DNA from: a virus
Virus record (IMG/VR): IMGVR_UViG_3300031788_000067
Span: 1-33,841 of that record
DNA length: 33,841 bases
Strand: one strand, 5' to 3'
Shown here: in pieces, positions 8,526 to 31,278 of the stretch
Numbering within the stretch: position 1 is the stretch's first letter
Layout of the letters: each line of letters begins with the position of its first letter
Notes under the pieces: model-generated
Database searches by the model: none
Told to the model about the DNA's origin: nothing
What the model saw: the letters and a program-made list of their open reading frames with translations, nothing else
Position numbers and translations under genes: made by a program

Positions 8526-8789
8526 ATGTCAACTACTACTACTGATGAAATGAAAACAACCGAAACTCAAACGCCACCTCTCACTGAAACTGCCAAACTG
8601 ATTCTTTGTCGACTTTCTAATGGTCAAGTCCAGTACACTATCGCCGGCACCGATCCCGACCTCGCTGGGCTCCTTGCTTTCGGAAGCGCAGTTGTTCACG
8701 AAAGAATGCGGTCCACTGTAGCCGCCGTTGGCAATCAGAAGCCTGCAATCGTGAAACTTCCTCCAGAAATGGAACCTAAACTTCAATGA
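8526..8789 (+). CDS. Small protein of unknown function, first gene of glycosyltransferase cassette
   Basis: This 87-residue protein has a Thr-rich N-terminus (about 1-20) and a small globular part with 'KLILCRLSNGQVQYTIAGTDPDLAGLLAFGSAV'. It has an AGGAG ribosome binding site, and its stop overlaps the start of the GT9 gene (ATGA), so the two are coupled. No signal peptide or membrane segment is seen. I do not recognise it; the coupling suggests it acts with the glycosyltransferases. Confidence 0.7.
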   Translation: MSTTTTDEMKTTETQTPPLTETAKLILCRLSNGQVQYTIAGTDPDLAGLLAFGSAVVHERMRSTVAAVGNQKPAIVKLPPEMEPKLQ

Positions 8790-9814
8790 GTACTCAAAAG
8801 GAATTCCTACGAAACTTCGAAGTCCACGGCGATGGGCATCCAGTGGATCCCAATTCCTTCATGCTCCTGCCGGCAATGAACATTCCTGGTATGCGAGTAC
8901 GATGGGCCGCTGAGAACAAAGTCTCACAGAGTGTTCTCTTGAAAGTGCATGGTGGTCTGGGAGACCAAATCTGTGCTGAGCCAACCGTTCGCTTCGCAGT
9001 AGAAACTCTCAAGGATGTAGAAATCTCGCTTCTGGCCATGACTCCCGAACTCTACTCCCACATTCCCTTCAAGAAAGTCTACGAGAAAGGAGATTACCCA
9101 AACCTTGGAGAGCATCTGATCTTTGACCTATTTGCCCAGCAGGACTACTTCATCTTGAACTACATCAAGCATGAGCACTGTCATTGTGTCGACTTCTCCT
9201 GTCTGGTGGCCTTTCAAGGGATGGTACCCCAAGAGTTCAGGCAGATTAATCTCAAACCCTCCGAGGAATCATTTGCCAAGATCGAGCCTCATGCTGGACC
9301 TGACAAAGTCGTTGTCCATTGCGGGAAATCCTGGCAATCAAAGACCTTTCCGAATTGGTGGTGGAATCGTGTTTTAGCTAGGCTCAAAGAGAAATCAGCC
9401 GTTCCAATTTTAATTGGAAAAAGCGAAAATCCTAATTCGGTCACTGGGATGATCGAAGGAATTGATATCGAAGGCTGCATCGACTTACGTGACAAACTCC
9501 AAATCATGGAAACCGTGGCTTTACTTCAGAAGTCAAAGGTTCTTCTCACTAATGACTCTAGCCCTATGCACATGGCTGCTTCCGGAGATGCATGGATTGG
9601 ATTTGTCACAATGGCTCGTAGACCCGAGTTCCTCACTCACACTCGGCACGGACAATTCGGATGGAGAATGGAAAACATGTCCCGAGATGGAATCTGGTCC
9701 AAGAAAGACGTCTACCTCAAAGCAGGTCACATTGAAGAAATCGGAGACGAGCTTCGTGATTCATGGTTGCCCACTCCAGAAGCATTCGCAGACTGGGGAA
9801 TTGATAGACTATGA
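8786..9814 (+). CDS. GT9-family (heptosyltransferase-like) glycosyltransferase, copy 1
   Basis: This 342-residue protein has the marks of the ADP-heptose:LPS heptosyltransferase family (GT-B fold): an N-terminal 'LLKVHGGLGDQI' glycine loop at 52-62, a central 'VVHCGKSWQSKTFPNWWWNRV' acceptor/donor segment at 176-195, and the donor-binding motif LTNDSSPMHMAA at 254-265. The family moves a sugar from a nucleotide donor to a lipid-linked or surface glycan in the cytoplasm. The gene is coupled by ATGA overlaps to genes on both sides. A paralogue lies at 25924-26931; the two share the same architecture, including an N-terminal extension and a 'THCHCIDFPSLTAF'-like segment. The donor and acceptor cannot be read from sequence. 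Confidence 0.85.
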   Translation: MSTQKEFLRNFEVHGDGHPVDPNSFMLLPAMNIPGMRVRWAAENKVSQSVLLKVHGGLGDQICAEPTVRFAVETLKDVEISLLAMTPELYSHIPFKKVYEKGDYPNLGEHLIFDLFAQQDYFILNYIKHEHCHCVDFSCLVAFQGMVPQEFRQINLKPSEESFAKIEPHAGPDKVVVHCGKSWQSKTFPNWWWNRVLARLKEKSAVPILIGKSENPNSVTGMIEGIDIEGCIDLRDKLQIMETVALLQKSKVLLTNDSSPMHMAASGDAWIGFVTMARRPEFLTHTRHGQFGWRMENMSRDGIWSKKDVYLKAGHIEEIGDELRDSWLPTPEAFADWGIDRL

Positions 9815-12750: not shown

Positions 12751-12978
12751 ATGGACAGATTAATTAAGTTCAATTCTTTTAGTGGACATGGGTGGCTCAA
12801 AAAGGCCCATAGCCGACTTGGCCAAGCGGACCTTGCTTTGGCCCATTCATTCATCCAAGAAAACCAGTCTCTCGATAAGGGAGCCTTTGAATTGAAAGTT
12901 AACCGTATGTTCCTTGATCGGCCTAAACCTAAAAACTGGACAGTCATTGTTGAACTACTCACTTGTTGCAACTCCTAA
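12751..12978 (+). CDS. Small protein of unknown function behind a strong promoter (75 aa)
   Basis: This 75-residue ORF begins right after a consensus-like promoter. It is moderately basic (FNSFSGHGWLKKAHSRLGQ, then ALAHSFIQENQSLDKGAF), with a hydrophobic C-terminal strand (WTVIVELLTCC). No ribosome binding site precedes the ATG, which fits leaderless translation if the promoter call is right. It lies opposite in direction to the terminase and methyltransferase genes and overlaps the methyltransferase 3' end by 24 bases. An antisense ORF of similar length (12726-12971) is the alternative. I do not recognise the protein. Confidence 0.45.
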   Translation: MDRLIKFNSFSGHGWLKKAHSRLGQADLALAHSFIQENQSLDKGAFELKVNRMFLDRPKPKNWTVIVELLTCCNS

Positions 12979-13866
12979 CTCCTCGTTCATACCCTCAATG
13001 TCCGCTATTTCTACCGTGCCACAAGCCTCGGTAGCTTTTCTGGGATCCCCTTTGCAAAAAACCAGTACATTTTGATGGGTCTTGCCCATCTTCCTGGTCG
13101 CGCTGAATGCTTTGCCCACACGAATCGGGAGAGACCCGAGAGAGGTCACCAAAATAGCCTCATTGTAAAGTCTAGCTCCAGCCATCTCAAACGCCTCAAT
13201 TGTATGACTCACAAAATTCCTATAGAAGCCCTTCTTGTCTCTTAAGTCTCCTACTACAAAGCAGGCAAAACGGTCCTCTTTCAAAAGGTCTACCGAACCT
13301 AAAATAATCTCGTTATAGGCCTTAATGAATTGCTCGTAGGGCATCGTACTTAGATCCTTTGGATCTTCCGAGTAAACCTCTAAATCGGCATAGGGAGGAC
13401 AACTAAAAATGAGATCAGGCACAAAATCTTTCACGTGATTCTTGATCTCCACACTGTCTCCACAAATCCATACAGGTTGTGGGTCCTGGCAAATCTGGGT
13501 AGCTTGTGTTCGATTCGCTTCCACCTGTTCTTGTCGGAGCTCAATCCCAACGTATTGACGATCTAATTTTGAAGCCACGATACCTCTAACGGATCCGCCA
13601 GCAAAAGGGTCAAGAACATTTCCCTTGATTGGGCAAAACCAACGATAGGCGAGCTCACAAAGAACCGGATCGAAAATGGAAGTTCCAGCACTCGGCTGAG
13701 CCGCAAGAATCTTGCGGCTCACTTCATCTAGGGCATCTGGATCCCTATTACCTTTAACCCATGTTAAATTTTCCGATGCTGATTTGGCATGAAGGTCTTC
13801 CGGGAAGACCTTCCCATTTACATATTTACTTGGTGGTTTGCTCCCACCAGGAATTGCATTACTCAT
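12955..13866 (-). CDS. Site-specific DNA methyltransferase (N4-cytosine / N6-adenine type)
   Basis: This 303-residue enzyme has SAM-binding motif I DPFAGGSVRG at 86-95, followed by catalytic motif IV SCPPY at 155-159, so the motif order is I then IV. A Ser before PPY is commonest in N4-cytosine enzymes, but N6-adenine is also possible. The N-terminal 'DEVSRKILAAQPSAGTSIFDPVL' is typical of phage ParB-methyltransferase systems. It would methylate phage and possibly host DNA to evade restriction. The ATG directly abuts a (CAACGGG)4 tandem repeat, whose GGG units also sit at ribosome-binding distance. It overlaps an upstream 46-codon frame by ATGA. The ParB-like gene at 14111-14683 is its likely partner. 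Confidence 0.85.
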   Translation of the reverse strand: MSNAIPGGSKPPSKYVNGKVFPEDLHAKSASENLTWVKGNRDPDALDEVSRKILAAQPSAGTSIFDPVLCELAYRWFCPIKGNVLDPFAGGSVRGIVASKLDRQYVGIELRQEQVEANRTQATQICQDPQPVWICGDSVEIKNHVKDFVPDLIFSCPPYADLEVYSEDPKDLSTMPYEQFIKAYNEIILGSVDLLKEDRFACFVVGDLRDKKGFYRNFVSHTIEAFEMAGARLYNEAILVTSLGSLPIRVGKAFSATRKMGKTHQNVLVFCKGDPRKATEACGTVEIADIEGMNEELGVATSE

Positions 13867-14110: not shown

Positions 14111-14683
14111 TCATCCCCCCCCCCGGCCTATTTCAGATTGAATACCGAGAGCAAGCCATTGTCGTTTTCGCTCTTGCCAATAGCCCTGACGCGCATCCAA
14201 AATAGTAAACGGTGGGACTAGAAAGCGTTCAGATAATTTAGGACCCGGCCCATCTCCTGGAGCACCGTCCTCATTCAAATCCAATTTGAAATCCTTAATC
14301 CCCAAAAGATCAATGTCGAAATCCGGACCTAAATCGGCAAGGTCAACATTAATCCCAGCAAGATCGAGCTCACTCCAAGACGCGATGGCATTGTCACTTT
14401 GAATGAAAGCGTACTCAACCTCATCCGATTCAAAGTCCTGATAGACCACTGGAGCCTGGCTCCATCCGTTCTTCAGGATGGCTTCCAATGTCCCATGTCC
14501 CTTCACCATGAATCCGGAGAGATTTGAGAGGACGATCGGAGCCCGGATGCCCTGATAAGCCAAGATCTTTGCCAGTCGCTCGATCTGTTCGGGTGAGTGC
14601 TTATTTCGATTCTTTGGGTGTGGTTTGAGCTCGGAGCAGGGAATCAATTTGTGATAGGCGCAATGTATTGCGGGGGTACCCAT
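14111..14683 (-). CDS. ParB-like nuclease/binding-domain protein
   Basis: From the ATG at 14683 the protein has 190 residues; a TTG start at 14752 would add 23 poorly conserved residues. The N-terminal ParB/sulfiredoxin-type domain includes 'LIPCSELKPHPKNRNKH' and 'SPEQIERLAKILAYQGIRAPIVL', then 'MVKGHGTLEAILKNG' in place of the usual GERR box, and 'YAFIQSDNAIASWSELD'. The C-terminal part 'RFLVPPFTILDARQGYWQERKRQW' is typical of phage proteins in which ParB domains are fused to or paired with DNA methyltransferases. The protein ends abruptly at a G10 tract (…EIGRGGG). Losing one G would extend it into the 32-codon frame. It probably forms one functional unit with the downstream methyltransferase. 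Confidence 0.75.
   Translation of the reverse strand: MGTPAIHCAYHKLIPCSELKPHPKNRNKHSPEQIERLAKILAYQGIRAPIVLSNLSGFMVKGHGTLEAILKNGWSQAPVVYQDFESDEVEYAFIQSDNAIASWSELDLAGINVDLADLGPDFDIDLLGIKDFKLDLNEDGAPGDGPGPKLSERFLVPPFTILDARQGYWQERKRQWLALGIQSEIGRGGG
14115..14124. repeat. Homopolymeric C10/G10 tract at the 3' end of the ParB-like gene
   Basis: Ten consecutive C on the plus strand lie within the last codons of the ParB-like gene. With ten G the frame ends four bases after the tract; with nine G it continues for about 40 more codons. Such tracts are both slippage hot spots in vivo and a common place for assembly errors. Confidence 0.9.
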
Positions 14684-15007
14684 TATATCAACCGTATCAG
14701 TCAAGCTTTCGAATTCATAGTGTCTGAATCGACTTGGGGCAATTTTTCTCAAAATCCCAATTCACTTTCACAGTCGCCTCTCCCTTGGTGACCAGGCCCG
14801 TGGTCAGGACATTGCATGACGCGTTGCATCCAATACCGAGTGTATAACTGACAAAATCTCTCTTGTTTTCCAAGGAGCTTCCGATTGGGTCTTGTATCGG
14901 CCATATTCTCTAGGGTACCTACCTTACTTTTTTAGTAAAGTTAAGAACTGAACATCACATTTCGTATCGGAGTTGTTGATCTTATTTCACTGTGTCAAAG
15001 TAAACCT
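14684..15007. other. Upstream region of the ParB-like gene, no firm gene
   Basis: This 324-base stretch, which includes the upstream sequence in frame with ParB down from the TTG at 14752, holds no well-supported gene. A 26-codon minus-strand ORF (14749-14829, starting MQRVMQCPDHGPGHQ) has no clear ribosome binding site. Possible control elements are the inverted repeat at 14789-14806 and the AT-rich dyad TTACT/AGTAA near 14923-14937. No convincing -35/-10 pair could be placed on either strand. Confidence 0.4.
14789..14806. repeat. Perfect inverted repeat TGACCA-6-TGGTCA, possible operator
   Basis: Arms 14789-14794 and 14801-14806 are separated by GGCCCG. It lies about 105 bases upstream of the ParB-like ATG in a non-coding stretch, where a repressor could act. 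It could equally be a small RNA hairpin. Confidence 0.4.
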
Positions 15008-20081: not shown

Positions 20082-20977
20082 TTCATCTGTCCTTCCTTCA
20101 TGTGAGTCAAATGCTTAATCAACTCCTGAATGCGATGTGCTTGCATTTCTCTATAATCAGAGACCTTCTCTTTGGACAGCCATTTCTCCTGAGTTTCATT
20201 GGAAATCTTGAGGTCCTGGAGAAGTCCGCTTAGCACTCCGATCTGCTCATTGGTTGCAAGTTCGATGATCTTCCCTTGGGTCTCGATGATTTCCTTACCG
20301 TAGCGCTTGGAGAACTCTGCATAGCTCCACTGAAAGTTCTCTCCATCAGGAAACTCCTTAATCCGAGACTTCCGCACATTACCCATCCGCTTATCGCCAG
20401 ACTTCACCACCCGAATGGCTAGATCAAGCTCATACTCGAGCTTCTCCCAAGCGTCGAACGTGAACCCCGTTTGCTCGGCCTTTTCCCACATGACTTTTTC
20501 GTGACAGATCAGAATTACGTTCATGTCAATGCGATCAATCCAGTTGATGAGCTTTCGGGTCAGCATCGTCGCAGGCTTCTTAGAAGCTCCGAACGCATCC
20601 TTGTCACCCAGACGGTCCATTTCTCGGGCGATGGCAACATTGTAGAGCTTGGAAAGCGAATCGATGATCACAGTCTTGAACTCATGCTTCTCAGTAGCAA
20701 GAGTCTTTAGTTCCTCAATGACCTTCTCGAAGTCCTGGGAATCCTGTTCAGGACCCATGTAGACGCCACCAGAATTATGAAGCTTCTCGATGTACTGACC
20801 ACGGCTCGCACCCCCTTCAGTGTCGATGTAGTAGACCGAAGGAAATTCAAGAGCCCACCAGGTCTTTCCAACACCTGGCCGACCGAAGACTAGGATCTTG
20901 GGTTTCGAAGGAGTCGCAGAGGCTGGAGCAATCGCCTTCAAGCGAGACTTTCTTTCGGGAGCTTTGACCTCAGTCAT
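20078..20977 (-). CDS. Sak4-like RecA-fold ATPase (phage recombination)
   Basis: This 299-residue protein has Walker A GRPGVGKTWW at 32-41, 'VYYIDTEGGASRGQY' after it, and Walker B 'TVIIDSLSK' at 102-110. It also has 'MNVILICHEK', the sensor strand, as in the AAA_24/Sak4 family of phage single-strand annealing ATPases. The C-terminal 80 residues are helical. Sak4 proteins work with a phage single-strand DNA-binding protein, here probably the DUF669-like product. It is the second gene of the early minus-strand operon, with RusA nearby on the other strand. Confidence 0.85.
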   Translation of the reverse strand: MTEVKAPERKSRLKAIAPASATPSKPKILVFGRPGVGKTWWALEFPSVYYIDTEGGASRGQYIEKLHNSGGVYMGPEQDSQDFEKVIEELKTLATEKHEFKTVIIDSLSKLYNVAIAREMDRLGDKDAFGASKKPATMLTRKLINWIDRIDMNVILICHEKVMWEKAEQTGFTFDAWEKLEYELDLAIRVVKSGDKRMGNVRKSRIKEFPDGENFQWSYAEFSKRYGKEIIETQGKIIELATNEQIGVLSGLLQDLKISNETQEKWLSKEKVSDYREMQAHRIQELIKHLTHMKEGQMK

Positions 20978-20979
20978 TC

Positions 20980-21171
20980 TTATCTTTCCTTTTTGACAAT
21001 AAGTTCCAATACGGCTTCCACTGCCTCAAGGAGCTTATGAGCAACGTCATCTCGTTGTGCGAGCATGGCTAAAAATTTTTCAGTTTCTTCATCAGCTTTT
21101 GGATTGATGGGTCCGGTTGGCGGAAGCCCGTGATCATCAACGAACATAGGACTGTAACTCCCAAAGAGCAT
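20980..21171 (-). CDS. First gene of the early operon, unknown function (63 aa)
   Basis: I choose the ATG at 21171, preceded by GGAG at 9 bases; an in-frame ATG at 21186 and a TTG at 21189 lie against the stem-loop at 21198-21244 with no ribosome binding site. The product MLFGSYSPMFVDDHGLPPTG is followed by an acidic C-terminal helix (LLEAVEAVLELIVKK). No family is recognised. Its 3' end supplies the AGGAAAG site for the Sak4-like gene. Confidence 0.6.
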   Translation of the reverse strand: MLFGSYSPMFVDDHGLPPTGPINPKADEETEKFLAMLAQRDDVAHKLLEAVEAVLELIVKKER

Positions 21172-21197
21172 AAAACTTCGCTCCATCAAAATTCTGG

Positions 21198-21244
21198 GCC
21201 CCGGCTCATCTTAGTTCCGCCAAGAATTCAGATGAGGCCGGGGC
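21198..21244. other. Stem-loop element 1 of a twin pair
   Basis: A 14-bp stem (21198-21211 with 21230-21244, one bulged G at 21237) closes an 18-base loop containing AGTTCCGCCAAGAATT. The same loop motif (AGTCCCGCCAAGAACT) recurs in element 2. The loop bases 21214-21221 are also complementary to 21274-21281 (GGCGGAAC), allowing an alternative fold. On the minus strand the element sits immediately upstream of the early operon. Confidence 0.6.
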
Positions 21245-21301
21245 TTCTTACTAACACTTGATTACGTGAGTTCGGCGGAACCTCTATTGGAATAGTGCGT
21301 C

Positions 21302-21334
21302 ATCACTGAAAAAGCAATCTTAAAAATCAGTGAT
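21302..21334. repeat. Inverted repeat ATCACTGA-17-TCAGTGAT, possible operator
   Basis: Perfect 8-bp arms at 21302-21309 and 21327-21334 enclose an A-rich spacer. It lies centrally between the divergent early operon and RusA, where a repressor of either would bind; it could also be an RNA hairpin. Confidence 0.45.
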
Positions 21335-21365
21335 AAACTGGAAGAATTCTCCGTTAAGAGCGTGG

Positions 21366-21421
21366 GGCCCGGAGTCTCATCAGTCCCGCCAAGAACTGGG
21401 AGTTTGCTCCGGGCCTTTTTT
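21366..21421 (+). terminator. Strong intrinsic terminator, stem-loop element 2
   Basis: A perfect 9-bp GC-rich stem GGCCCGGAG/CTCCGGGCC (21366-21374 with 21407-21415) is followed immediately by six T on the plus strand. No plus-strand gene precedes it, so it must end a short non-coding or leader RNA that begins between 21190 and 21360, or guard RusA from upstream transcription. Its loop shares the CCGCCAAGAA motif with element 1. Confidence 0.8.
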
Positions 21422-21464
21422 GTTAGATCAAGGGATGGTTTGTTGAAGAAACCGGAGATAACCT

Positions 21465-21892
21465 ATGACGCAACCAGATGCAATCAGAATTGAATACGAA
21501 GGGGAGCCAGTCGCTAAGGGCCGACCCCGTCTCGGAAGAGGGGTATTTATACCCCTTCCAAAACCCTCCAGTTCGAACACAACCTGGCCTGGGTTGCGCG
21601 ATCACAGATCAAGCAGCCTCTCTTCGGTCCAATCCTCCTTGAGGTCTCCTTCCGTCTCCCAAGGCCCAAAGAAACGAAGTTCCTCTATCCTCCAAAGCCT
21701 GACCTAGATAATCTGATTAAGTCCCTTGACGCACTGAATGGAATCGCCTGGAAGGACGACTCGCAGATCGCAACCATTTGGGGAGCAAAGCGCTATTGCC
21801 TGACGTCCGAAAAGCCCGGAATCTCCATTGCTATTTGGCCTCTCGGGGACTTCAAGGCTTCTTTTGCAATCGGGCTCAAGCCTCAGCTCTGA
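21465..21892 (+). pseudogene. RusA-like Holliday junction resolvase, -1 frameshifted
   Basis: Residues 1-28 (MTQPDAIRIEYEGEPVAKGR and on) match the start of RusA, an endonuclease that resolves four-way DNA junctions. From about 21548 the RusA frame continues one base back: it reads YTPSKTLQFEHNLAWV, then PPKPDLDNLIKSLDALNG and IAWKDDSQIA with the catalytic Asp residues, and stops at 21892. Together the two frames make a full-length protein of about 142 residues. The break falls in a T-run inside the inverted repeat GGGGTATTTATACCCC (21540-21555). A deleted T, an assembly error or recoding are the options. GGAG lies 7 bases before the ATG. Confidence 0.75.
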
Positions 21893-21928
21893 GGAATCGG
21901 AGGAACTGTCCAACAATAAAAACAACTC

Positions 21929-21958
21929 GGCCCCTTTGAACTTGCGTTCTCGGGGGCC
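21929..21958 (+). terminator. Hairpin after RusA, weak terminator
   Basis: Stem GGCCCC/GGGGCC (21929-21934, 21953-21958) with an inner GAAC/GTTC stem and a TTGC tetraloop. The 3' side (TGATTGTACTTCTTT) is only moderately T-rich, so termination may be partial. It may instead be the first helix of the structured RNA. Confidence 0.45.
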
Positions 21959-21966
21959 TGATTGTA

Positions 21967-22440
21967 CTTCTTTAAGCGCTAAAACCGAAAGAAGCGAATG
22001 TGACGCTAGTAGTAATAGAATAAGCCTTCAGCGTCAAGTCATTTTTCTCCTCTCGGAAACAAAAGCCCAGGACACTTCAGGCTCAACTGGTAAACCCAGC
22101 CTGACAGAAGGACCGGCGTCGAGAGGCCTCGGCATTACTTTGTGAGTGATCAAGCTAGCTTGGGCAGAAGAGGCCTACGACGGTCTATCCCTGAGCTTAA
22201 GAGTCGGACGTGCTGGACAGGATGACCCATGGCGTTCAAGGGGCGAGAATGGCTCGGCGGCTCACGAAGAGGATGGAAAAAGCACGTAGGGTCCAGCAAG
22301 GCGAAAGTCGCCCTGGGGTTCGTACTGAACGATCGAGGTCTATGAGCTCTGAAAGGCTCTAATAAGCTAAGACTTGGATCTTTCAGTTCCTTCCCCAGGG
22401 ATAGTCGAGTGATGGGACTGCAATAGCGATTTAAACCCCA
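21967..22440 (+). ncRNA. Candidate large structured non-coding RNA
   Basis: Many perfect or near-perfect helices can be drawn on the plus strand: CTTCTTT/AAAGAAG (21967-21973/21988-21994), TGACGCT/AGCGTCA (22001-22007/22030-22036), TCAGGCT/AGCCTGA (22077-22083/22098-22104), GTCGAG/CTCGGC (22118-22133), TGCTGGAC/GTCCAGCA (22211-22218/22291-22298), a GGCG/CGCC hairpin (22300-22312), GTTC/GAAC (22318-22330), AGGTCT/AGACTT (22336-22341/22370-22375) around GAGCT/GGCTC, and the long-range CCCTGGGG/CCCCAGGG (22311-22318/22393-22400). Several helices contain G-U pairs that would be A-C mismatches on the minus strand, so the plus strand is the RNA. I do not recognise a named RNA class. Ends are approximate. 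Confidence 0.6.
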
Positions 22441-22467
22441 CCTGGAAGAAAAAGGGTAGGTAGGGGG

Positions 22468-22479
22468 AAAGTATACTTT
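22468..22479. repeat. 12-bp palindrome AAAGTATACTTT before the sugar C-methyltransferase gene
   Basis: A perfect 12-bp palindrome 20 bases upstream of the ATG. It contains TATACT, so it may be both a -10 box and an operator. No good -35 is visible. Confidence 0.4.
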
Positions 22480-22498
22480 TGCCTTCGATCTATTCCTA

Positions 22499-23704
22499 AT
22501 GCATAGAAAGCTGATGGTCACCGAACTCAAAGCATGCGAAGTCTGCGGGAATCGCGATCTGGAATCCGTCCTGAACCTCGGAAACCATCCTCTTTGCGAC
22601 GACTTGGTTCCCATCGGGGATTCCAGAATCTGCAAAGAATACCCCATCGAGATTCTCTTCTGCCCGACCTGTGTGACAGCTCAACAGCGCTTCAGGCTCC
22701 CAAAAGAAGAACTCTTTCCTCCGAACTATCACTACCGAGCTCGGCATACCCAAGATGTCCTCAAAGGAATGGAGGAGCTTGTACGATGGTGTGAGAGCGA
22801 AATCGGGTCCTTAGAAGGGCTCAACGTTCTCGACATTGGATGCAATGATGGAAGCCTACTCAATTTCTTCAAAGTGAAGGGATCTCTTACTTATGGAGTT
22901 GACCCCACTAAGGCCGCAAATGAGGCAGCTATAGCGAGACATGAAGTCTTTCCGGCTTGCTACTTTCATGAGGAATTTGCTCGAAGAGTTCTTCCTCTCA
23001 TTGGAACTCAGGATATCATTACGATGACCAATGTTTTCGCCCATGTTGACAATCTGCCAAGTGTGATCGAAGGCATTAGACTGCTTTCTCACAATGAAAC
23101 TATGATCGTGATTGAAAATCATTACTTGGGCTCCGTGTTGGATAAATGTCAGTTCGATACTTTCTATTACGAGCATTTAAGAACCTACAGTGCCACATCT
23201 TTCCTGCACATTGGAAAACATCTGGGAATTGCTCCAAAATACATCACCTTTCCATCGAGATATAACGGGAATATTAGGGTGACCTTCAAGAACGACCGGA
23301 GTCCTAACTTCGATGACCTCGTAGAAGGAGAGAAGAACTTCGGCAGAGATTTGAAGACTCTCGCAGATCACATTCCAGAATGGAAAGCGCATGTCCTTCC
23401 AAGGATTGAGTATCAGGTGAAAAAACACGGCCGCATGAGAGCGAAAGCTTTCCCCGGGAGAGCTGCCATACTCATCAAGCTACTCGGACTTACGAATGAT
23501 CAGATCGAAGCTGCTTACGAGAAGCCCGGATCCTCAAAGATCGGGCATTATATCCCTGGCACGCGCATTCCCATCCTTTCGGAAGATCTATTGGAGTACG
23601 ATGATGATCGTCCTATCCTAAATCTTGCTTGGCATATTTCGCACGAAATCAAGGAGTATTTGAAAGAAAAAGGCTTTCGAGGAGAGGTCACCAATATTCT
23701 ATGA
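22499..23704 (+). CDS. Sugar C-methyltransferase (TylCIII/NovU-like)
   Basis: This 401-residue protein has the three-part layout of NDP-sugar C-methyltransferases. The N-terminal zinc-binding domain has CEVC at 13-16 and CPTC at 55-58. A Rossmann SAM-binding domain begins 'LNVLDIGCNDGSLL' at 108-121, and includes 'DIITMTNVFAHVDNLPSVIEGI' and 'VIENHYLGSVLDKCQFDTFYYEHLRTYS'. A C-terminal domain ends 'KGFRGEVTNIL'. Relatives add a methyl group to carbon 3 or 5 of deoxysugars before their transfer to a glycan or antibiotic. The alternative start is Met6; neither has a clear ribosome binding site. It is coupled by ATGA to the oxidoreductase gene. It is unusual in a phage. Confidence 0.85.
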   Translation: MHRKLMVTELKACEVCGNRDLESVLNLGNHPLCDDLVPIGDSRICKEYPIEILFCPTCVTAQQRFRLPKEELFPPNYHYRARHTQDVLKGMEELVRWCESEIGSLEGLNVLDIGCNDGSLLNFFKVKGSLTYGVDPTKAANEAAIARHEVFPACYFHEEFARRVLPLIGTQDIITMTNVFAHVDNLPSVIEGIRLLSHNETMIVIENHYLGSVLDKCQFDTFYYEHLRTYSATSFLHIGKHLGIAPKYITFPSRYNGNIRVTFKNDRSPNFDDLVEGEKNFGRDLKTLADHIPEWKAHVLPRIEYQVKKHGRMRAKAFPGRAAILIKLLGLTNDQIEAAYEKPGSSKIGHYIPGTRIPILSEDLLEYDDDRPILNLAWHISHEIKEYLKEKGFRGEVTNIL

Positions 23705-24549
23705 AAGTGGGCATTCTAGGACGAGGATTCGGACTCTATGGGTGGATGCCTGCGGTGCTCAATACTCTTCTCGATGCAGAGGTCTTCGTTCCGGCTAGAT
23801 ATGTGATCACAATTCGAAGTCGTTACGACCTTGCCGGATATTCTGATAGAATTCGGTCTTGCGCTACTGATGATGCAGTTCTTGATGAATGTGAAATGAT
23901 CATTCTCGCTCTAACTCCATTGAAACAATTCGAATATGCACAAGTCTGTTTCGAGAAATCAAATATCACTCATATGATCCTTGAAAAGCCTTTGGGATCG
24001 ACTCCTGAAATGGGCTCAGTTCTTTTGAGCCAACTAAGACATTCTGGAAAGAAATTCCTGATTGATTATCTGTTCAGATATACCCAATGGGGTGAGGATT
24101 TATTGATAAATCCTGCTGGATTTGAAGGCATCAGCTGGTATTTTCAGAATCCAAATCATGCAGGTTCTTGGAAATTAGATTCGGATCCGGTGAAAGGCGG
24201 AGGACCGCTCAAATTCTATGGAATCCATCTTCTCGCCCTTTGTGCTGAGCTCGGATATCAAAAAGCTCTCTACTCTTTCGAAAGTAGAACGAATTGGACA
24301 TGCAAACTGGTGGGAAGCCTTCCGGATTGCCAATTGAAACTCGCTACTGAAAGCTCTCCCGCAAGGTTCAAGATTCTCCAAAATGGCAAAGAAATTTGGC
24401 TCAAAGAACCCTTTGCAGATTTCGGTTCTTCCGATCGAAGAATTCCAGCTCTTCAAGAAACGCTGAAGGACTTCCTAAGACCCGACTTTGAGACCCCTCA
24501 TTGGTATGAAAAGGTCAATGACCTCTGGGTTCAGGCTACCGGAGCTTGA
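23701..24549 (+). CDS. Gfo/Idh/MocA-type oxidoreductase-like protein
   Basis: From the ATG at 23701 (overlapping the methyltransferase stop) the protein has 282 residues. It has an N-terminal nucleotide-binding loop MKVGILGRGFGLYGWMPAVL and the family signature 'THMILEKPLGSTPE' with the conserved Glu-Lys-Pro. A 'DPVKGGGPLKFYGIHLLAL' segment follows, equivalent to the 'GGGxxxDxGxH' catalytic region. Such enzymes oxidise or reduce sugar carbons with NAD(P). At 282 residues it is shorter than most (about 330-360), mainly in the C-terminal sheet. The pair could make a branched or methylated sugar. Its last 19 bases overlap a convergent gene. Confidence 0.75.
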   Translation: MKVGILGRGFGLYGWMPAVLNTLLDAEVFVPARYVITIRSRYDLAGYSDRIRSCATDDAVLDECEMIILALTPLKQFEYAQVCFEKSNITHMILEKPLGSTPEMGSVLLSQLRHSGKKFLIDYLFRYTQWGEDLLINPAGFEGISWYFQNPNHAGSWKLDSDPVKGGGPLKFYGIHLLALCAELGYQKALYSFESRTNWTCKLVGSLPDCQLKLATESSPARFKILQNGKEIWLKEPFADFGSSDRRIPALQETLKDFLRPDFETPHWYEKVNDLWVQATGA

Positions 24550-25923: not shown

Positions 25924-26931
25924 TTACCAATGAATTTTCGAAATAGCCCAATTCGCAAAGTCTTCAGGGATCGGCAGCCAGCGATCTAGTTGAGAGTCAG
26001 TAATCGCAGTCACGTCGCCCGAGTTCAGGCAAACGTCCATATGCTCCCAGACTCCTCCCTTTCCAAAATGCTCCATGCGCCAGCCATGAGCTCCGTGCCG
26101 GGTATGAATGAGGTAATCGGGGTGCTTCGCTAGAGAGATGAATCCCACGAAGGCGTCCCCAGATGCTGCCATATGAAGGGGACTGGAGTCATTGGTGAGC
26201 ACCACGTCCGATCTTTGGAGGACAGCCACACTTTCCATAGGACTGAGCTCTTCTCTGAGGTCAATGCATCCAGAGGTATTCACGTCGACTGTCCCACCGA
26301 TGGCTGTCTTCTTTCCAATCAGCACGGGAGTTAGATCGGCTCTCTTCAAGGTTCGGATGACCTGGTCCCACCACTGCTTGGGAAAGGTCTTACTCGCCCA
26401 TCCGGCTCCCGGATGAAGAGTCACAATGCCTTCTTTGGGAAGCTTCCAAACCACTGAGAATGACTCTTCTCTCGAAGGAACCAACAAAATCTGCCGGTAC
26501 TCTTTCGTGAGCATCGCCCGAAAGGCCGTCAGGGATGGGAAATCGATGCAATGGCAAGTGATCCCGCAAATAAAATCCCATGGAAGATCCCCATTACCCG
26601 CATGCATGTCATAGACATAGTGATCCAAGACTTTGAGCTCGGGATCCCCGATTCGGTAGACCTTTTTGAACGAGTGATGCTGGAAGAATTCAGGAAAGTC
26701 CGTCAGGAGAGAAATCTCTACATTCTTGAATGTCTTGAGAGCAAAATTCACCGAAGGCTCTGAGCAGATGATGTCACCCAGACCCCCGTGAGCCTTGAGA
26801 AGAATATTGCCCTGAACGCCATTCTCATGAGCCCAGCGCCTTCTCTCCACGGGCATCCGCATGGCCTGAATGGCAACAAAACTATGGTCGGGATCTATCT
26901 TGTCTTCCGGACCAGCAGGGGCAAGTCCCAC
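25924..26931 (-). CDS. GT9-family (heptosyltransferase-like) glycosyltransferase, copy 2
   Basis: This 335-residue paralogue of the enzyme at 8786-9814 starts with GTG; no ATG lies nearer in frame until residue 24. It has 'LLKAHGGLGDIICSEPS' at 44-60, 'VTLHPGAGWASKTFPKQWWD' at 170-189 and the donor motif LTNDSSPLHMAAS at 245-257. The conserved pieces align over the whole length, including 'GWRME' near the C-terminus and a 'WLPxPExFAxWxI' ending. It lies on the other strand in the fibre/lysis region, so the copies arose by duplication or separate import. A role in modifying the neighbouring glycine-rich fibre or the host surface glycan is inferred. Confidence 0.85.
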   Translation of the reverse strand: MGLAPAGPEDKIDPDHSFVAIQAMRMPVERRRWAHENGVQGNILLKAHGGLGDIICSEPSVNFALKTFKNVEISLLTDFPEFFQHHSFKKVYRIGDPELKVLDHYVYDMHAGNGDLPWDFICGITCHCIDFPSLTAFRAMLTKEYRQILLVPSREESFSVVWKLPKEGIVTLHPGAGWASKTFPKQWWDQVIRTLKRADLTPVLIGKKTAIGGTVDVNTSGCIDLREELSPMESVAVLQRSDVVLTNDSSPLHMAASGDAFVGFISLAKHPDYLIHTRHGAHGWRMEHFGKGGVWEHMDVCLNSGDVTAITDSQLDRWLPIPEDFANWAISKIHW

Positions 26932-27688: not shown

Positions 27689-28165
27689 CTAAAAGACATA
27701 TGCCGTTCCACCACTATTGACCTGCAGAACTCCTCCACTGGCAATGGTAAACGGATGAATTGCCGTAAAGCAGCCACCACTATTCACCGTTAAGGTCAGA
27801 CCATTTGGAATTGTAAGATTCGGCCAAAGAAGAGTCGTCCCCGTGAGAACGGTAGTGTTCTGAGGAAGAGTATTTACGGTGAGAAGCCCCCCCGGAGATG
27901 TACCGTTCACATTGTCTACAGTCCAAAGAAGATTATTATTGGCATCTTCCAAAACCAACTTATAGGACTTCGATGGATCAATCCAAACGTCTGCGTACCC
28001 ATAAGCATCCAGGATCACTGGATTTGTATTGGTGGTTCCACCTTGATTAGAATAAGTTACCTGTGGTGTAGTGGTCCCGGCGACATAGCTGAATAATTGC
28101 CCCCCAGCAAGCATTACACCATTATTATCGAAAAATCTCTGTCTGATCAGTGGAGAAAGAATCAT
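27689..28165 (-). CDS. Tailspike/tail-fibre head-binding domain protein
   Basis: The protein has 158 residues. 'IRQRFFDNNGVMLAGGQLFSYVAGTTTPQVTYSNQGGTTNTNPVILDAYGYADVW' is the typical N-terminal head-binding domain that docks podovirus tailspikes to the virion (as in the P22 tailspike). Short beta-helix-like strands (residues 100-158) follow and the protein ends there; no receptor-binding or glycanase part is present. So it is either a short adaptor to which other fibres attach, or a truncated spike. It overlaps the upstream gene by ATGA. Confidence 0.8.
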   Translation of the reverse strand: MILSPLIRQRFFDNNGVMLAGGQLFSYVAGTTTPQVTYSNQGGTTNTNPVILDAYGYADVWIDPSKSYKLVLEDANNNLLWTVDNVNGTSPGGLLTVNTLPQNTTVLTGTTLLWPNLTIPNGLTLTVNSGGCFTAIHPFTIASGGVLQVNSGGTAYVF

Positions 28166-30042
28166 TGTCCTAACCCATATCCTTTCTGAAGCTGCTGGAT
28201 AATATTTTTCATAGCTGCAGTTCCAGGCTTCAGATCAGATGCCTGAATGAGAAGTTTCTTTGCCATTGGATTTTGAACCAGTCTATTTGCAAGGCCCGGA
28301 TCATTGATTCCAATTTTCTGCATTCCTTGCTGAGCCCAAAGATCTTCTCCTTTGAGCTTTGGAGGATTCACTATGGATTCAGTCTTTGCTCCCTGGAGAG
28401 CGGCATTGAAGGCTGCCTGCCCTCCAGGAGTCTTCAGAACGTCATAGGCTCTTTGAATCGTGGCATCGCTCAGTTCACCGGTGACCCCTGCAATCTTTTG
28501 AATCGCTCCGACAGGAATCTTTCCTGCCTGAATCCCGAGTTTTAGAGCCATGGGACTAGTGATACCGGCCGCAATCCCAGCAGCTATTGGGCCACCTAGG
28601 GCCTGTCCCACGATACCCGCCTTCAGAGCCCGCTCTACACCTTTACCTGTAGTGTCGGCCGAAGAAAGTCCCGGACTTGCGAACCTCTTCGCCGCCGCAT
28701 ATATCTGGGCTTGTCCCAGTAGATCCTGGCCAGTTGCCTGACCCAATTGTTGGAGTTGAGCCACGCCTCTTGGATTTGTCCCACTCCCAGCCCCTACCAA
28801 GGCTGTATCGGGCGTTCCTGGAGCGATCAGATTCCCATTCATTTTGTCCTGAAGCACATGCAGTTGATAAAGCTGATTATTGGCATCCGCAACCGTGGGA
28901 GACATCGTGTTCACAATGTCTCTCGCCTGAGCTGCACCTTTCTTTGCTGCAAGCTGGGCATCCTTCCCAGGGACAAACATTTGCCCATCTTTCATGTAGG
29001 AAGAGGCACCCCGATCCTGAAGAAACTGCTTGATATCGAACATTTCCTTAGGGGTGACTTTGCCCTGATTATCAGCGAGCCAATGCAACCGATTAATCAA
29101 ATCCTGAACTTGTCTCACTTCCTCGTAGCGGAGCTTGAAGTTCATCCCATTCTTTACATCATTAAGAGCATCCACCACTGGAGCGATTGGAACGTTCTTT
29201 TCATCGGGAAGGGCTGAAAGAGCTTGATTTACCTGTTTCCCTAATTCCGCTACTTTGGCACGAATAGAATTTTGGAATCCTTGCCGGATCTGATCAGCCC
29301 CACCGCTTGCAATTTCATCTCCATGTTCGGCAATGAGCTTCTGAACTGCAGGATATTTTGAAATGTAAGTTTCAACTTCTTGCTCCGGAATTCCAGTGAG
29401 CATGCTGCCCACTTTGCTGGTGACCTTTGTTCCAGCGGAGCTTGCTATTTCTCCAACCGCATTAGCAGCTTTCCCTATATTTCCTGCCTGTCTTGCAGCA
29501 GTCCCAGCAACCGCCTCAGCGGCCTTTCCCATTGGGAGATAGGTCATTGGATCAGCAGCCACGTCAACACCAAGTCCTGCAACCCCAGCAGGACTAGCCC
29601 CAGCCACATTCTCTACCGATCCGGGAGCCACCTTATTTGCAATGAACCCGAAAGGAGTAACCTTCACCGCATTGGCTGCAATGTCCTGGTTTTCAGGAGA
29701 AAGAATCGGTTCCGTTGATAGGCCAGCCTTTGCAGCAATGTCTTTGCCCGTCGGAGCAAGTGCAGGATTTGCTCCAAACTGATTCTTAAAAGCAGAAGCA
29801 GCTCCGGAAAGATCCGTGGGATTGTCTTGAAGACTCGCAATTGCAGCTCGGGTTGGAGCTCCTCCATAGGAATCGATCGTCTGTCCGACCTTACCAATGT
29901 CACCTAAGATGGATTTGCCCGCTTGTGTCAGAAATCCGGAATCAGGCGCAGACGGACTTTCAGCGGGTGCCTGATAATTAGACCATGGCCCACTTTGGGA
30001 GTCAGAACTCGAATTTGAATAATTATCCCATGGGCCAGCCAT
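28162..30042 (-). CDS. Large internal virion / DNA ejection protein (P22 gp16-like position)
   Basis: This 626-residue protein is Ala-, Gly- and Gln-rich. It has two copies of a 'GPWxNY' motif at the N-terminus, long amphipathic helices (about 220-430) and a membrane-active stretch at about 490-525 (GIVGQALGGPIAAGIAAGITSP). P22 gp16 (609 residues) is an ejected protein in the equivalent gene position after gp7 and gp20 and is similar in size and composition. No enzymatic motif is visible. Family identity is by position and composition, not by clear motif. Confidence 0.65.
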   Translation of the reverse strand: MAGPWDNYSNSSSDSQSGPWSNYQAPAESPSAPDSGFLTQAGKSILGDIGKVGQTIDSYGGAPTRAAIASLQDNPTDLSGAASAFKNQFGANPALAPTGKDIAAKAGLSTEPILSPENQDIAANAVKVTPFGFIANKVAPGSVENVAGASPAGVAGLGVDVAADPMTYLPMGKAAEAVAGTAARQAGNIGKAANAVGEIASSAGTKVTSKVGSMLTGIPEQEVETYISKYPAVQKLIAEHGDEIASGGADQIRQGFQNSIRAKVAELGKQVNQALSALPDEKNVPIAPVVDALNDVKNGMNFKLRYEEVRQVQDLINRLHWLADNQGKVTPKEMFDIKQFLQDRGASSYMKDGQMFVPGKDAQLAAKKGAAQARDIVNTMSPTVADANNQLYQLHVLQDKMNGNLIAPGTPDTALVGAGSGTNPRGVAQLQQLGQATGQDLLGQAQIYAAAKRFASPGLSSADTTGKGVERALKAGIVGQALGGPIAAGIAAGITSPMALKLGIQAGKIPVGAIQKIAGVTGELSDATIQRAYDVLKTPGGQAAFNAALQGAKTESIVNPPKLKGEDLWAQQGMQKIGINDPGLANRLVQNPMAKKLLIQASDLKPGTAAMKNIIQQLQKGYGLGQ

Positions 30043-31278
30043 TTACTGCACCTTTTTCCAACTGGATTGTTTTCCCGGATCGCCGCCCATGAATACGTAG
30101 CCTCCCTCAACTGCCCCTAGCTTTGGAGCCCCCTTAGGTGCTCCAGAAGGAGGCGCTGCATTTGCGGATGGGCTTCCACCCAGGATCTTTCCAGCCACCT
30201 TACTTAGTGCTCCTGTTACTCCGCCAGAAGGAGGCACGTAAGGGCCGATCTGATTTTTCAAGTTCATGGCATCATTGTAAGTCTGATTCACCGCAGGCTC
30301 ATAAGTCATCGTAGGATCGTTCACATTCTGCTGAGCTGCTCTTGCCTGATAACGCTGCTGGGTTCCCTGAAGGCTTCGAACGTTTGCCTCATAGGTGGCA
30401 ATACCATCCCTCATTAAGTCAGCTCGGACTTCAGGATCTTTGATACCGGATTGCTTCTCGCTCACCCAGTTTTTCATTTGATTTGTCACGCCTTCAGCAT
30501 GGGAAAGTTCAGCAAGAGAATTCACGTCTGGAGCATTTGGAAATTTTATCTTAAATGCGTTTAATACAAGAGATGCATCCCCTTGAGGGCTGCTATCCTT
30601 ATAATTCTGCAGCATTTGCTGCATGGCCATTTGAGATTGCCTGACAGGCTGGGCTTGCTTGTCATACTGAGTGGTGAGCTCAGCATTCGGAGAACGGGAT
30701 CCATAAAGGGCGGCATTCAATTCGGCAGGCTTCATTGCGACATTGGATGCAAGTATGGCATTTTCGAGGCCTTCTTTGGTTCTGCTCCCAATAGCAATAC
30801 CTTGATCAGCCCATTTCCGATCCCAGTCAGGAGGAGTATTCGTTAGAGGAATTCCCTGATCTTTCAGACCCTGCATCACCTGTGGATAAGCTTGCTGGGC
30901 CTGTTCAAGACTCTTCAGATATTGGAGGGCCGGCAATGTCACACTGAGCACATTGTGTGCCTGAACCATCTGAGCAGTCTTCGCCTCAGCTTGAGCCTTA
31001 TCGGAAGCTGCGAACTGGTGTTCCATCTGCATAGCTGCCTGAGGAGCAGTCTTGTAAAGATCCGAAAGCACCCCAGTTCTGTCCAACTGACCAGTTTGAG
31101 TATCTGTGTTTCTCGCGAGAGCTCCACGAATGGCTCCTTGTTGCTGCATCTGATAGCCCAACTGCTGTTGCTTCATCGCGAGATCACTGAGTTTCAGAGC
31201 ACTTTCAACTGAGCTCACAGGGTTGAAATTATTCTCCGGAGGTTTGATACTTGAATAGATACTTGTGTCTACTGGCAT
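30043..31278 (-). CDS. Internal virion / DNA ejection protein (P22 gp20-like position)
   Basis: This 411-residue protein is helical and very rich in Gln and Ala (KLSDLAMKQQQLGYQMQQQG, about 30-50; a repeated 'QQMLQNY' region). It ends in a Gly/Pro linker and 'GGYVFMGGDPGKQSSWKKVQ', a C-terminal tag seen on phage internal proteins. It lies between a gp7-like and a gp16-like gene, matching P22 gene 20 (471 residues). It would be packed with the DNA and ejected; this is by analogy. Confidence 0.65.
   Translation of the reverse strand: MPVDTSIYSSIKPPENNFNPVSSVESALKLSDLAMKQQQLGYQMQQQGAIRGALARNTDTQTGQLDRTGVLSDLYKTAPQAAMQMEHQFAASDKAQAEAKTAQMVQAHNVLSVTLPALQYLKSLEQAQQAYPQVMQGLKDQGIPLTNTPPDWDRKWADQGIAIGSRTKEGLENAILASNVAMKPAELNAALYGSRSPNAELTTQYDKQAQPVRQSQMAMQQMLQNYKDSSPQGDASLVLNAFKIKFPNAPDVNSLAELSHAEGVTNQMKNWVSEKQSGIKDPEVRADLMRDGIATYEANVRSLQGTQQRYQARAAQQNVNDPTMTYEPAVNQTYNDAMNLKNQIGPYVPPSGGVTGALSKVAGKILGGSPSANAAPPSGAPKGAPKLGAVEGGYVFMGGDPGKQSSWKKVQ

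Follow-up and report, generated by a model that had tools for sequence, protein, structure and literature searches.

A Probably Untranslated Phage Spacer with One Exceptionally Stable Predicted Hairpin between rusA and a Sugar-Type C-Methyltransferase Gene

Introduction

Processing stems of the RNase III type sit between phage genes, as in the early mRNA of T7. RNAs on a much larger scale are found in phages as well: GOLLD is a large structured RNA of phages and prophages, of unknown function and with many members above 800 nt, and GOLLD and ROOL both often lie near tRNA islands (PMC12286853). The present work concerns a 474 nt stretch (positions 21967-22440) of an IMG/VR-type virus record of 33,841 bases, the whole of which was analyzed and is here called the window. 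A sequence-only reading had put this stretch forward as a large structured RNA that fits no known class, and the latter part of that proposal was borne out, as no Rfam family matches. Thus, cmscan of all Rfam families returned nothing at the gathering score and, with the cutoff relaxed to E 10, no more than sub-threshold noise, with no match at E 10 to the models of GOLLD (RF02032), HEARO (RF02033) or group I introns (RF00028), and none to that of ROOL (RF03087), for which the same search matched in no control genome either. ARAGORN detected no tRNA anywhere in the window. Should all of the stretch be a conserved structured RNA, the short list of large phage RNAs (GOLLD, ROOL), of open function, would gain a class; at present the stretch stands as a single-copy candidate, useful mainly as a query against further sequence.

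Results

By its portal (PF16510), coat (PF11651), terminase and SU10-type adaptor proteins, as recognized from sequence, the phage is a P22-like podovirus, and the window also encodes a Sak4-like annealing protein and an SSB-like protein. Most genes in the window run leftward. The stretch lies in a rightward block, in which the flanking genes proved to be those that the sequence-only reading had named and which has the following order:

21465-21892, plus strand: rusA, Holliday-junction resolvase gene with a disrupted frame (PF05866, E=1.1e-14 on 21572-21892)
21967-22440, plus strand: purine-rich, probably noncoding stretch within the spacer (judged by codon scores, PHROGs and a purine fraction of 0.57 in 22105-22440)
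22499-23704, plus strand: sugar-type C-methyltransferase gene, start possibly at 22514 (PF08421, PF13489 and PF08484; Methyltransf_13/23/14)
23629-24549, plus strand: oxidoreductase-like gene

The rusA gene starts at 21465 in one frame, and its RusA homology runs in another frame to 21892. The switch of frame, at 21525-21575, coincides with a hairpin that is almost perfect, GGAAGAGGGGTATTTATACCCCTTCC; its candidate causes are mutation, programmed frameshifting and an error of sequencing or assembly. Among the viral-contig fragments identical to other parts of the phage, none was found that covers the rightward block, and neither rusA nor the spacer nor the methyltransferase has a detectable relative in related phages of 33-35 kb (portal identity 38-70%), which marks the region as variable. 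Elsewhere in the window, genes 8786-9814 and 25924-26931 both encode family 9 (heptosyltransferase-like) glycosyltransferases, and thus form a pair of paralogous sugar-transfer genes in one phage, the second being 48% identical to the copy of the first carried by relative G001. The neighbors 12955-13866 and 14111-14752 match the C-terminal and N-terminal parts, respectively, of a single DNA methyltransferase/ParB-like family, phrog_498, and look like one split gene.

The divergent gap upstream of rusA holds two similar strong hairpins, at 21196-21244 and 21365-21415 (-32.4 and -30.7 kcal/mol), which share the motif GTYCCGCCAAGAA with 74% identity over 31 nt, and the second of which ends in TTTTTT like a terminator. 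Between them, at 21270-21290, lies GTTCGGCGGAAC, complementary to the loop motif GTTCCGCC and a possible pairing partner for it. With z -2.8 on the plus and -3.3 on the minus strand, the fold of this gap (21190-21464) is better supported than that of the whole 474 nt stretch, and the gap is a possible early leader in which terminator or antitermination elements lie in tandem. The motif GTYCCGCCAAGAA was not found among the relatives compared.

The coding potential of the spacer was assessed with a codon model that had the genes of the phage itself as its training set; these score 0.185 +/- 0.10 against -0.115 +/- 0.11 for other frames. No frame of 21900-22480 reaches a clear coding score in this model, the best local values being 0.05-0.09, and over 21893-22498 no frame stands clear of background. 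The three longest open frames of this interval have no PHROGs family match, and two of the three have no credible relative in phage records. On the strength of the codon scores and the PHROGs search, translation of the stretch is improbable; the frame that ends at 22145 retains a small chance of coding. The claim that no protein-like frame is present accordingly stands: no codon signal rises clearly above background, and neither codon scores nor PHROGs point to a conserved protein frame over the region.

Folding energies were compared with those of shuffled sequences. The 474 nt of 21967-22440 fold at -157.6 kcal/mol, with z -1.16 (11 of 100 shuffles equally good; z -1.09 on repeating), while the same test gives -0.81 for the opposite strand, -1.37 for E. 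coli tmRNA and -2.46 for RNase P RNA. A z of -1.1 or lower is reached by 7 of 22 plus-strand comparison windows of the same genome, one of which overlaps the stretch. Because the tmRNA control reaches only about -1.4 and ordinary windows of the genome equal the stretch, the energy test neither supports nor excludes a structured RNA; as these controls illustrate, single-sequence folding energy cannot decide such cases. Energy no better than that of shuffled sequence is what we found for the whole (z about -1.1), and 21967-22310 is indistinguishable from shuffles; the 3' hairpin, with z about -5, is the exception. The plus-strand folding advantage (-157.6 versus -146.7 kcal/mol) was not borne out, being mostly compositional: a difference of 9 kcal/mol in this direction is seen between the shuffled strands too. 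The plus strand is rich in G over C and A over T and has a purine fraction of 0.57 in 22105-22440, compared with 0.48-0.51 in its plus-strand neighbors, an excess that fits plus-strand transcription. Structured RNAs often have such a composition.

The predicted stems in and around the stretch are as follows:

21922-21965, plus strand: terminator-like hairpin after rusA, GGCCCCT/GGGGGCC, with a weak T tail (pair probability 0.91-1.0 when folded with flanks; -22.8 kcal/mol for 21919-21970)
22001-22036, plus strand: helix TGACGCT/AGCGTCA, kept whatever the boundaries (probability 0.96-0.97)
22077-22104, plus strand: helix TCAGGCT/AGCCTGA (probability 0.82-0.88)
22124-22176, plus strand: helix AGGCCTC/GAGGCCT with nested hairpin 22134-22150 (probability 0.97 and 0.67)
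22208-22298, plus strand: mutually exclusive helices ACGTGCT/AGCACGT (22208-22214/22281-22287) and TGCTGGAC/GTCCAGCA (22211-22218/22291-22298), neither in the predicted folds
22311-22400, plus strand: rod-like hairpin with stems of 8, 6, 4, 6 and 5 bp and small internal loops between them (-44.2 kcal/mol, z -5.55)
22436-22466, plus strand: small hairpin CCCCACCTG/TAGGTAGGGG with no T run behind it (probability 0.95-0.98, -12.8 kcal/mol)

The hairpin at 21922-21965 was not called by the terminator scan. The two 8-bp helices singled out in the sequence-only reading are both perfect in sequence. One of them, the long-range helix 22311-22318/22393-22400 (CCCTGGGG/CCCCAGGG), closes the rod, whereas the other, 22211-22218/22291-22298, is absent from the predicted folds and competes with the 7-bp pairing listed beside it. 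A further pairing, 22349-22355/22380-22386, excludes the rod. As to the multiple stems proposed, the stretch does contain nine local Watson-Crick helices of at least 7 bp within 100 nt against 1.9 expected (0 of 1000 shuffles reach nine), a threshold that is one of several and was applied to a region chosen beforehand for its stems; at 5 and 6 bp the counts are not significantly raised over shuffles. The excess extends to 21967-22310 (7 versus 1.3 expected). A comparable excess of 7-bp local helices is shown by the coding stretch 29600-30100 and not by RNase P RNA or tmRNA, and with the coding control behaving in the same way we marked the observation down to weak support. Most of 29600-30100 falls within gene 28162-30042.

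When 21967-22440 is folded alone, its ends are closed by TTTAAG-CGCTA/TAGCG-A-TTTAAA, an 11-bp bulged helix (21971-21981/22424-22435) of probability 0.89-0.96. Folding of 21880-22500 abolishes this closing helix and rearranges 22184-22298, and leaves the helices 22001-22036, 22077-22104, 22124-22176 and 22134-22150 as well as the rod in place. It follows that the compact multi-arm picture, unlike the local hairpins, hinges on where the ends are set. The rod is the only domain of the stretch with exceptional stability. Over 22308-22404, boundaries that were chosen afterwards, it has z -5.55 on the plus and -3.85 on the minus strand; in a fixed 100-nt window its z is -4.76, rank 5 over the whole window, and an equally stable 100-nt window occurs in about 1% of shuffled regions. 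Its arms are 77% complementary over 31 nt (reverse-complement self-match E=1.8e-5), its fold is more stable on the plus than on the minus strand by 7 kcal/mol (-44.2 versus -36.9), and about 100 nt separate it from the methyltransferase start downstream.

Homologues were sought at the DNA, protein and structure levels. A blastn search of phages and plasmids gave no useful match to the stretch. Viral contigs were scanned with translated frames and DNA patterns, and genome contigs with translated frames; these scans, of types that find only close relatives and could have passed over a remote one, returned no homologue. Neither did 70 virus records, chosen as related or as bearing rusA or Sak4, when searched at the DNA level. 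A structure-aware single-sequence model of the rod matched only the rod itself and its own reverse complement, and the gaps of G005, the nearest full-length relative, bear no similarity to the stretch. L090, considered as a relative on 37% identity over 35 residues, has no DNA-level match and was set aside as chance. Nothing similar was found upstream of methyltransferase relatives in bacterial MAGs (51-54% identity), so that in those genomes the spacer does not travel with the gene. For covariation, the decisive test, the collections searched thus supplied no homologue.

Discussion

The reading that we tentatively prefer is that of an untranslated plus-strand spacer or leader between cistrons that contains a single genuine hairpin with a role in cis. 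A rightward message would come from the divergent region near 21190-21464, pass through rusA and continue into the genes for methyltransferase and oxidoreductase, which may have been acquired. The terminator-like hairpin at 21922-21965 would follow rusA, and RNA reading through it would carry a few local stems and the strong rod, making the spacer the untranslated leader of these two downstream genes. Acting in cis, the rod would most probably serve processing or stability, as a stem of the RNase III-site type, and may thereby separate rusA expression from that of the sugar-modification genes. In favor of a spacer acting in cis are the shared plus-strand orientation of rusA, methyltransferase and oxidoreductase, the lack of a clear codon signal or protein family in the spacer, the plus-strand purine excess, the lack of sequence support for a separate transcription unit, and the finding that the rod alone is exceptionally stable; against it are the helix excess over 21967-22310, which a single-hairpin spacer does not explain, and a length of some 600 bases, long for a spacer in a compact phage genome.

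A somewhat unlikely alternative is a free-standing phage RNA, large, structured and of a class not described before. It would be closed by 21971-21981/22424-22435, bear several arms and the rod, and act in trans as scaffold, regulator or agent of host takeover. The nine helices, the closure of the ends in isolation, the G-over-C and A-over-T bias of the plus strand and an energy z close to that of real tmRNA argue for it. Set against these are a whole-region z that several ordinary windows of the genome equal, the loss of the closing helix once flanks are included, a helix excess shared by coding DNA and not by RNase P RNA or tmRNA, and the lack of any homologue or paralogue in the collections searched. 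Transcription signals add to this side of the balance: a scan with the sigma-70 consensus, which leaves a promoter of its own of another type possible, found no match in 20900-22800, and the terminator scan found no site behind the rod, so that a separate transcription unit is without sequence support. That the stretch represents a new structured RNA class of P22-like phages, unrelated to the known ornate RNAs and built as a closed multi-arm body with a 3' rod, we consider unlikely. In sum, the original observation holds in part, and interpretation as a large ornate RNA is neither supported nor refuted; the stretch stands as a candidate known from one sequence, in which one hairpin is solid.

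Decayed or non-selected DNA at the junction of the inserted sugar-modification genes, with stems that are incidental, is unlikely as well. It would account for the failure to find conservation even in related phages, for the variability of a region with no detectable counterpart in the 33-35 kb relatives and for the disrupted frame of the adjoining rusA, but it sits poorly with a strong rod and a helix excess in noncoding DNA, and phages usually lose DNA that they do not use. Far less probable is a small protein, for instance from the plus-strand open frame 21804-22145 (TTG start at 21828). This frame is open for 113 codons, and its codon score of 0.03-0.09 around 22000-22200 falls between that of genes (mean 0.185) and that of other frames (95th percentile 0.064), but its first part scores as noncoding, it has no match in phages or PHROGs, and it spans less than half of the stretch. 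A DNA element, with the imperfect 31-nt inverted repeat as a protein-binding site or the remnant of a palindromic mobile repeat, is extremely improbable, for although the arms are 77% complementary over 31 nt, there is no further copy in the window or among the relatives compared and the better folding of the plus strand suggests RNA.

Compared with the systems described at the outset, the stretch, if it is RNA, shares with GOLLD that both are large phage RNAs, but it measures 474 nt, has no tRNA nearby and does not match the model. ROOL is similar in size (574 model positions) and in phage context, but at the stretch there is no tRNA island, and its multi-stem structure is without comparative support. 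Group I introns occur in phages and cover a similar size range, whereas the stretch splits no gene. With stems of the RNase III type, finally, the predicted rod has in common that both are long interrupted hairpins in a spacer between genes read from one strand, the processing of the rod being putative.
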